64,000 nt of DNA from Candidatus Methylopumilus universalis (GTDB lineage Bacteria; Pseudomonadota; Gammaproteobacteria; Burkholderiales; Methylophilaceae), in assembly GCF_006365315.1 (NCBI RefSeq), contig NZ_CP040968.1:992001-1056000 (forward strand), given 5' to 3'. A model generated the notes under the pieces. That model did no database searches, had not been told where the DNA came from, and worked only from the letters and a program-made list of their open reading frames with translations. The position numbers and the translations under genes were made by a program. Shown here piece after piece: positions 31,172-33,705 of this stretch (its first letter is position 1; each line of letters starts with the position of its first letter).

Positions 31172-31183
31172 AACGCAAAATTT

Positions 31184-31213
31184 TTGATTTTTTTATAAAA
31201 ATACATGTAAAAT
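31184..31213 (+). promoter_or_regulatory. Candidate promoter of the HTH-argA fusion gene
   Basis: TTGATT (31184-31189), an 18-base spacer and TAAAAT (31208-31213) lie 27 bases before the ATG. The -10 box is the left arm of an inverted repeat TAAAAT-ATGC-ATTTTA (31208-31223), a possible operator for the encoded HTH domain. The region is very AT-rich, so chance matches are likely. Confidence 0.45.
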
Positions 31214-31239
31214 ATGCATTTTAAGCAAATTATAAACCT

Positions 31240-32793
31240 ATGTCTCTTGGCGCAGCAATCAGAAAAAGAAGGAAGTCTCTAGGGTTCACCCTGCAGGCAT
31301 TAGCAAAAAAAATTGCGAGCGACCCCGGTAATCTTTCTAGAATAGAAAGGGGCGAGCAAAATATAGGTGAAGCGCAATTATTAAAAATATGTGAAGCGCT
31401 TAATTGTGCCCCCTCCAGTCTTTTTCAAAATAACGTGCCTGCAAACAATATTCCAAAACTAGATAGCCAAACATTTGCAAGATGGTTTAGATTAGCGGCC
31501 CCGTATATCAATACTTTTAGCAATAAAACATTTGTTATTGCTTTTGGCGGGGAGCTTCTTGATGAAGATCAGTTTACCGCTCTCTCTCACGACATCAACT
31601 TATTAACTTGCTTAAATGTCAAAATTATCCTCGTTCATGGGGCAAGACCTCAAATCGACCAGAAGCTAAAAGAGAGAAAAATTTCAACTCAGCTTGTAAG
31701 AAATGTTCGAGTCACTGATGATTTAAGTATGGAAGCTGTTAAAGAAGCTAATGGTCTGATTAAGATCAATATTGAATCAACACTTTCTTCAAGTCTTTTA
31801 AACTCGCCTATGGCGGGTAGTGATATTAAAGTCTCTAGCGGAAATTTTATTACTGCAAAACCTTTGGGTGTAATTGATGGTATCGATATGCAACATACAG
31901 GGGAAGTAAGAAAAATTGACAGCGCTGCCATCAAGAAAAAATTAGACAACAAAGAATTAGTAGTGATCTCACCCATCGGTTATTCGCCTACAGGTGAAGT
32001 ATTTAATCTCACAATGGAAGATGTAGCCCTCAAAACCTCTATAGCTTTAGAAGCGGATAAACTTATTCTTCTTATAGATTCCGATGGTATTTTTAATCTA
32101 AGGAATGAACTTCTGCATGAGATGACATTAGAAAAGGCAATTAATCTTTATAAAAGCACTTCAAAAAATAATCCAAAAAAACATGAGCTTATTAATATCA
32201 ACTCCAATGAGTTAGATCTTCTTGAAATTGCTATTAAAGCTTCTGAAGCAGGTATAAATAAAATTCATCTCATTAATAGGCATATTGATGGTGCGATTCT
32301 GCAAGAATTATTTACAGATGAAGGTGTAGGAACAGTTATTACCGAAAAAGCTCTAGATACTATTAGGCCAGCTTCACATAACGACGTTAAAGGAATTCAT
32401 AAGCTAATTAATCCACTGGAGGCTGGAGGGTATCTTGTTAAAAGAGGCAGAGAAAGAATTGATCATGAGATAGAAAACTTTTTAGTGATCGAGCATGATA
32501 ATAAAATTATCGGTTGTGCAGCTTTATATTCTTATGATGACCATGTTGAATTTGCATGCTTTGCTATTAACAAAAATTACCAGTCTAAAGGCTTTGGGTC
32601 AAAGCTCTATAATTATTGCGAAGAACTTGCGCGACAAAGAAATTATAAATATCTATTTGCCTTAACAACAAGAACTGAGCATTGGTTCATTGAGAAAGGT
32701 TTTAAAGAAGAGAATATTCAAAAGCTTCCTAAAAAAAGAATAGAGTCTTATTTGCCACAAAGAAATTCAAAATTTTTTATTAAAAAGCTTTAA
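31240..32793 (+). CDS. argA: XRE-type HTH domain fused to amino-acid N-acetyltransferase (ArgA)
   Basis: The 517-residue protein has three parts. Residues 4-64 are a full XRE/Cro-type helix-turn-helix (AAIRKRRKSLGFTLQALAKK, then DPGNLSRIERGEQ). Residues 75-360 are an amino-acid-kinase domain starting TFARWFRLAAPYINTFSNKT and VIAFGGELL, the typical N-terminus of classical ArgA. Residues 370-517 are a GNAT domain with NYQSKGFGSKLYNY (acetyl-CoA loop) and TTRTEHWFIEKGF. ArgA makes N-acetylglutamate, the first arginine step, and is fed back by arginine through the kinase domain. Ordinary ArgA lacks the HTH. The frame is continuous with no slip site. A GTG at 31435 could be an internal start giving ArgA alone, but has no clear ribosome site. 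argB follows 27 bases later. Confidence 0.9.
   Translation: MSLGAAIRKRRKSLGFTLQALAKKIASDPGNLSRIERGEQNIGEAQLLKICEALNCAPSSLFQNNVPANNIPKLDSQTFARWFRLAAPYINTFSNKTFVIAFGGELLDEDQFTALSHDINLLTCLNVKIILVHGARPQIDQKLKERKISTQLVRNVRVTDDLSMEAVKEANGLIKINIESTLSSSLLNSPMAGSDIKVSSGNFITAKPLGVIDGIDMQHTGEVRKIDSAAIKKKLDNKELVVISPIGYSPTGEVFNLTMEDVALKTSIALEADKLILLIDSDGIFNLRNELLHEMTLEKAINLYKSTSKNNPKKHELININSNELDLLEIAIKASEAGINKIHLINRHIDGAILQELFTDEGVGTVITEKALDTIRPASHNDVKGIHKLINPLEAGGYLVKRGRERIDHEIENFLVIEHDNKIIGCAALYSYDDHVEFACFAINKNYQSKGFGSKLYNYCEELARQRNYKYLFALTTRTEHWFIEKGFKEENIQKLPKKRIESYLPQRNSKFFIKKL

Positions 32794-33705
<912 letters not shown>

Follow-up and report, generated by a model that had tools for sequence, protein, structure and literature searches.

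The N-acetylglutamate synthase (ArgA) of the Methylophilaceae carries an N-terminal helix-turn-helix (HTH) domain of the XRE type, and comparative analysis suggests that this enzyme also controls its own gene. In other words, HTH-ArgA is probably a trigger enzyme that represses argA through operator boxes in its own promoter, with arginine as the likely co-repressor. The gene was studied in a 64,000-nucleotide stretch of the Candidatus Methylopumilus universalis chromosome, referred to here as the window, whose features are listed in Table 1. The fusion itself and its conservation, the boxes and their restriction to the fusion's own promoter, the way they co-vary with the HTH, and the conservation of the arginine site were all computed. 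From them we infer repression, bridging of the boxes by the hexamer, and arginine as the signal, including the direction in which it acts.

In the proposed mechanism, the HTH of the synthase would bind two, in some genera three, TGY-N7-RCA palindromes arranged around its own promoter on the same face of the helix, thereby repressing argA and, in this genus, also argB behind it. The enzyme part is expected to form a D3 hexamer, as in classical ArgA, carrying three HTH pairs. A single hexamer could hold two or three boxes together, which would explain why the boxes are spaced at about 30, 42 or 50 bp. When bound beside the N-terminal helix that tethers the HTH, arginine would widen the ring, most likely favouring DNA binding in the manner of a co-repressor, and one ligand event would then both inhibit the enzyme and shut off its synthesis. 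The most likely role of the protein, as read from its promoters, is that of a dedicated autorepressor of its own promoter, with argB included in this genus.

Table 1. Recognized and predicted features of the argA-argB region (positions counted from the first nucleotide of the window).
Feature	Position	Strand	Basis or remark
Predicted operator box 1, TTTTGCATAAAACGCAAAA	31162..31180	.	Rank 1 in 64 kb, 17.4 bits
Predicted sigma-70 promoter TTGATT-18-TAAAAT, between the boxes	31184..31213	+	Consensus match only
Predicted operator box 2, ATATGCATTTTAAGCAAAT	31212..31230	.	Rank 2 in 64 kb, 16.8 bits
HTH-ArgA fusion gene, N-acetylglutamate synthase with N-terminal XRE-type HTH, 517 aa	31240..32793	+	ATG start, uninterrupted ORF
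HTH domain, residues 4-64	31249..31431	+	Pfam HTH_3, AlphaFold model, DxGNLSRIERG nearly invariant
Codon of HTH residue Gln40, co-varying with operator base	31357..31359	+	Best of 409 variable columns
Linker, residues 65-76 (12 residues), fast evolving	31432..31467	+	pLDDT <50
N-terminal hexamer helix and amino-acid-kinase-like arginine-sensing domain, residues 77-369	31468..32346	+	
GNAT acetyltransferase domain, residues 374-517	32359..32790	+	
argB (acetylglutamate kinase), probably co-transcribed	32821..33705	+	27 nt past argA stop, same strand

The sequence-only reading of this DNA had described a single open frame joining an XRE-type HTH to a complete ArgA, and this architecture proved to be real, with an uninterrupted frame and with Pfam HTH_3 and both NCBIfam ArgA models above their cut-offs. 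HTH_3 is matched at residues 7-59 (E 2e-10, 40.9 bits against a cut-off of 23) and the recognition helix is intact, which places the domain in the XRE/Cro-C1 group. AA_kinase (residues 96-309, 1.7e-28) and Acetyltransf_1 (residues 398-478, 2e-14) follow, and the full-length amino-acid-kinase-like and GNAT order of classical ArgA is present above the curated cut-off. The two NCBIfam ArgA models, NF003641 (residues 75-517, E 2e-174, 581 bits against a cut-off of 344) and TIGR01890 (residues 79-517, 1e-148, 496 bits against 203), both start downstream of the HTH and leave it uncovered. In the AlphaFold model, a monomer of moderate quality (mean pLDDT 74.8, pTM 0.54) from which no hexamer-DNA geometry was derived, the HTH block (pLDDT 83-90) consists of helices 3-13, 18-24, 29-36 (recognition), 44-53 and 58-62, followed by a disordered linker at 65-76 and the N-terminal helix at 76-89. 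The structural match of the enzyme part is to N. gonorrhoeae N-acetylglutamate synthase (NAGS; 2r8v and 3d2p), at 34% identity. The window belongs to a Methylophilaceae genome of 1.28 Mb; among records that carry a name, the nearest match comes from a Candidatus Methylopumilus genome (96% identity).

Judging from its substitution pattern, the HTH is genuine coding sequence under purifying selection. Within the genus, dN/dS is about 0.11 for the HTH and 0.064 around the recognition helix, while the linker reaches 0.21 and the enzyme domains lie at 0.02-0.035. In a set of 49 non-redundant proteins, the recognition helix D-x-GNLSRIERG hardly varies and the linker is unconserved; NLSR is invariant or nearly so across the fusion proteins, among which the linker varies greatly in both length and sequence. 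Translation only from the GTG at 31435 is ruled out by this selection on the HTH codons, together with box positions that are fixed relative to the ATG at 31240. In the HTH codons (31243-31431 in the window and the corresponding genus loci), dS is 0.75, about half of the 1.4-1.5 found in the remaining gene, which hints at an additional constraint near the gene start.

The same HTH-ArgA order extends through the whole family, as the follow-up to the earlier reading established. The fusion was found in 113 of 113 near-complete Methylophilaceae genomes and in 24 of 24 genera (matches over E 1e-40; 160 genomes searched); among the matches listed, the HTH either lies within the alignment or was confirmed by inspection. 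The six family genomes lacking a fusion match are all less than 90% complete. Apparent losses, in which the match began only at residue 52-76, were rejected, since all 17 such genomes that were fetched have the HTH behind a longer linker that had merely split the match; in an eighteenth case (G021) the HTH shows up as its own match within the one frame. Checked individually as a further set, the 17 fetched genomes all have the boxes too, with two strong boxes in 16 of them. Retention of the HTH throughout the Methylophilaceae also rules out a sequencing error, or separate genes, as the source of the fusion. Elsewhere in the order no close HTH-ArgA fusion was found, the matches there beginning near the enzyme's own start, and no fusion with this HTH type was found outside the family in a 369-genome sample of the class. 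The open-access literature, to which the search was confined, yielded no description of an HTH-NAGS fusion, and the architecture seems to be previously undescribed.

In the regions preceding 86 distinct fusion genes, an iterated palindromic matrix settled on W-W-W-T-G-Y-N7-R-C-A-W-W-W. A box of at least 12 bits occurs in 82 of 84 fusion promoters, against a mean of 1.1 of 84 in dinucleotide-preserving shuffles, and 53 of 73 promoters have a pair spaced at 28-32 bp, against none in the shuffles. Because the matrix was derived from the family's own fusion promoters, the independent test is the window, scored with a matrix from whose training its genus was left out: the window boxes take the top two positions of the 64 kb, and both lie at the fusion promoter.

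Two boxes whose starts are 30 bp apart represent the usual layout (50 promoters, with 29 or 31 bp in nine more). The spacing is 50-51 bp in the genus of the window and 42 bp in a marine clade (sites 1016454 and 1016496 of genome G044), so that spacings of about 30, 42 and 50 bp approximate whole numbers of helical turns (three, four and five). A weaker middle box is retained by members of the window's genus (L008, L009, L015, L035, L038), and in the Methylophilus promoters that were read the second box is weak or absent. Three tandem boxes at 28-32 bp were observed upstream of L097, L239, L244, L246, L247 and L248, the highest number found in any promoter and equal to that of the HTH pairs expected in a D3 hexamer. 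Box 1 of the window extends over the stop codon and final codons of rsmE, and operator and rsmE coding are constrained together there. The DNA probe suggested earlier, 31172-31239, would bisect this box, which starts inside the end of rsmE.

The position of the boxes around the predicted promoter points to repression. In the window, box 1 lies directly upstream of the predicted -35 element and box 2 covers the end of the -10 element and the expected transcription start. In a typical two-box promoter, such as that of L045, box 1 contains the -35-like TTGCAT or TTGTAT (TTGYAT), and, as read from the sequence, 17 bp separate this element from a -10-like hexamer that abuts box 2. An activating role, in which box 1 upstream of the -35 element would recruit RNA polymerase when arginine is scarce, could draw on the 50-bp spacing of the window's genus, where box 1 is just upstream of the predicted -35. 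Such a role is nevertheless improbable, given that box 2 overlaps the -10 end and the start, and that in most of the family box 1 contains the -35 element itself.

The boxes are confined almost entirely to the fusion gene. The exact IUPAC pattern occurs at 3 to 9 sites per genome in 11 genomes; the genome of the window has four, two of which are those at the fusion gene. A comparable pair is seen at no other promoter of the 11 scanned genomes. Most of the inspected sites elsewhere lie inside ORFs or beside unrelated genes, and the third-ranked site of the window (38317) falls inside an ORF. Additionally, the argA promoters of other families, whose enzyme is HTH-less (nineteen or more), have no box above 5 bits. 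Two recurrent single sites were also seen. One box-like palindrome is shared by three Methylopumilus-type genomes (L121 1800-1818, L127 1689-1707, L130 1456-1474), where it is flanked by a VIT-like gene and an 82-aa ORF, possibly a second target or a chance occurrence. Another lies at the junction of a metX-like and a metW-like gene in Methylophilus- and Methylotenera-type genomes (L133 1561-1579, L135 1541-1559, L123 2032-2050), where conserved coding overlap may account for it.

This confinement bears on the stronger claim of the sequence-only reading, namely that the fusion replaces ArgR. An ArgR-like master regulator of the arginine pathway would fit the membership of the fused enzyme in that pathway and the lack of ArgR in these genomes: the check for a missing argR found PF01316 above cut-off in 0 of 150 Methylophilaceae genomes. 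However, across the order as a whole, whether or not the fusion is present, the same search likewise gave 0 of 150, and a published survey describes ArgR as absent outside the gammaproteobacteria as classically defined (PMC5343134). Since the absence is order-wide and not specific to fusion holders, it does not explain the fusion. Moreover, in six genomes box scores at the carA, argC, argF, argG and argH promoters do not exceed about 6 bits, compared with 17-19 bits at argA. With ArgR missing from the entire order and the other arginine genes devoid of boxes, a substitute for the ArgR regulon was rejected, and master regulation of the pathway is extremely improbable.

A further question is whether it is the HTH of the fusion that reads the boxes. 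Residue 40, located in the turn after the recognition helix, is the best predictor of the third box base among the 409 variable columns of the whole fusion protein (adjusted R2 0.78; next-best column 0.65). Gln40 accompanies TGC (mean C fraction 0.82, 34 proteins) and Leu40 accompanies TGT (mean C fraction 0.15, 43 proteins), while on the separate branch of the marine clade Leu or Ile is again paired with TGT. This co-variation rests on about two to four independent changes and is therefore strong circumstantial evidence, not a formal test, that the HTH recognises the TGY-N7-RCA boxes. Paired boxes that are conserved, promoter-specific and co-varying with the HTH thus lend comparative support to the earlier suggestion of an enzyme that is also a DNA-binding autoregulator of its own promoter.

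Recognition by a separate, stand-alone regulator, with the ArgA HTH doing something else, such as nucleoid anchoring or serving a few other targets, is very improbable. XRE palindromes are generic, and some genomes do have a few single boxes elsewhere, as such a regulator would allow. Against it, double boxes occur only at the fusion promoter and are missing from HTH-less argA, residue 40 of the fusion HTH tracks the operator base better than 408 other variable columns, and altered recognition helices accompany altered promoters. In three members of the marine clade g31 (L213, L214, L216), the recognition helix is changed to INTSSLSR or INISSLCR and the boxes are missing, a marine subclade with the altered helix INTSSLSR having lost them. 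Ahead of the L214 start there is a long palindrome, ATAGCAATTATT-TAA-TAATAATTGCTAT, perhaps a new operator.

The sensory side of the mechanism relies on the arginine site. In N. gonorrhoeae NAGS, arginine sits next to the N-terminal helix, in a site that comprises an E-(L/I)-(F/M)-(T/S)-x-x-G-x-G-T loop, K201 and E270; when it binds, this helix shifts and the hexamer ring becomes about 10 A wider (PMC4490483). The corresponding loop of the fusion is ELFTDEGVGT at residues 356-365, with ELFTxxGxGT invariant across members. Its K274 and E356 align with K201 and E270 and are likewise invariant in all members. The HTH is attached directly to the N-terminal helix whose NAGS counterpart moves on arginine binding. 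Because the site is invariant, arginine is a plausible co-effector of DNA binding by the fusion, and by analogy with feedback logic it would be expected to promote that binding.

Autogenous repression could also operate with no response to arginine, the protein keeping its own amount constant or reporting the state of glutamate or acetyl-CoA. Boxes found only at the fusion's own promoter are what simple self-limitation would produce, and a loose tether is suggested by the linker, whose length and sequence vary; the differences in length may weaken any mechanical coupling between ring and HTH. The arginine-independent loop is nonetheless considered unlikely, because no member departs from ELFTxxGxGT or from the key Lys and Glu, and because in the homologue arginine moves the same helix that bears the HTH here (PMC4490483). 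Arginine-responsive autorepression remains the preferred reading.

A second ArgA fusion, with a different HTH and apparently of independent origin, was observed in another order of the same GTDB class, in 14 of 15 sampled genomes of one genus (loci L175-L182, from genomes G792, G820, G832 and others). The best Pfam matches of its HTH are P22_Cro and YdaS, both sub-threshold. Eight promoters were read, and in most of them a strong TTTGC-N7-GCAAA palindrome lies about 30-37 nt upstream, so that two different HTH types face similar palindromes. That the design occurs twice, each time with another type of HTH, speaks for its usefulness. The fuller picture, a hexameric biosynthetic enzyme acting as an arginine-responsive repressor whose ring places up to three HTH pairs on two or three operators of its promoter, and arisen at least twice with HTH domains of different families, is put forward tentatively, its chances being judged slightly short of even.

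Gene-level control of arginine synthesis is largely unassigned outside ArgR lineages, and the fusion gives one concrete answer, a committed enzyme that appears to read its own promoter, in a family that matters for the turnover of methanol and methylamine in lakes, in soils and at sea. Operators, recognition residue and sensor site are seldom all legible in the sequence, as they are here, and the coupling of feedback inhibition to repression within a single hexamer can thus be put directly to the test. The HTH, the boxes and the Gln40/Leu40 alternative also represent a tuning handle for arginine production in methylotrophs.

Among known systems, ArgR is a hexameric, arginine-responsive repressor that binds paired palindromes. 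HTH-ArgA resembles it in its paired palindromes and, by inference, in hexamer and arginine response, but it lacks homology to ArgR (the Pfam search found no PF01316 domain in the fusion) and a pathway-wide regulon. With classical ArgA it shares the entire catalytic and arginine-sensing part, including the conserved arginine site, whereas the classical enzyme has no HTH. Another parallel is offered by BzdR and BoxR, in which an XRE HTH sits on a shikimate-kinase-like domain (PMC6449761). Like HTH-ArgA, they are betaproteobacterial proteins with an XRE HTH on a kinase-like domain; they repress through TGCA-containing palindromes, for which cooperative binding has been proposed (PMC6449761). Their target is a catabolic operon, whereas HTH-ArgA is a complete anabolic synthase predicted to target its own gene.

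Enzymes with an acquired DNA-binding domain are called trigger enzymes, with PutA, NadR and BirA as examples in the part of the source consulted (PMC8249747). As in HTH-ArgA, a metabolic enzyme and a DNA-binding transcription regulator are combined in one chain, and PutA, which binds the putA-putP control region, is described there as controlling only its own locus, as predicted for HTH-ArgA (PMC8249747). The differences lie in enzymes, pathways and folds, none of the examples named in that part of the source being a committed enzyme of the arginine pathway (PMC8249747). PutA, NadR and BirA act as DNA-binding regulators, while DNA binding by HTH-ArgA is predicted from sequence. The features found in the fusion are those of a trigger enzyme, namely enzyme and DNA-binding domain in one chain and a conserved cognate operator at the target promoter. 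Trigger enzymes being already known as a kind, the novelty of HTH-ArgA, on the comparative reading given here, lies in the enzyme and its target, accompanied by operator evidence that spans the whole family.
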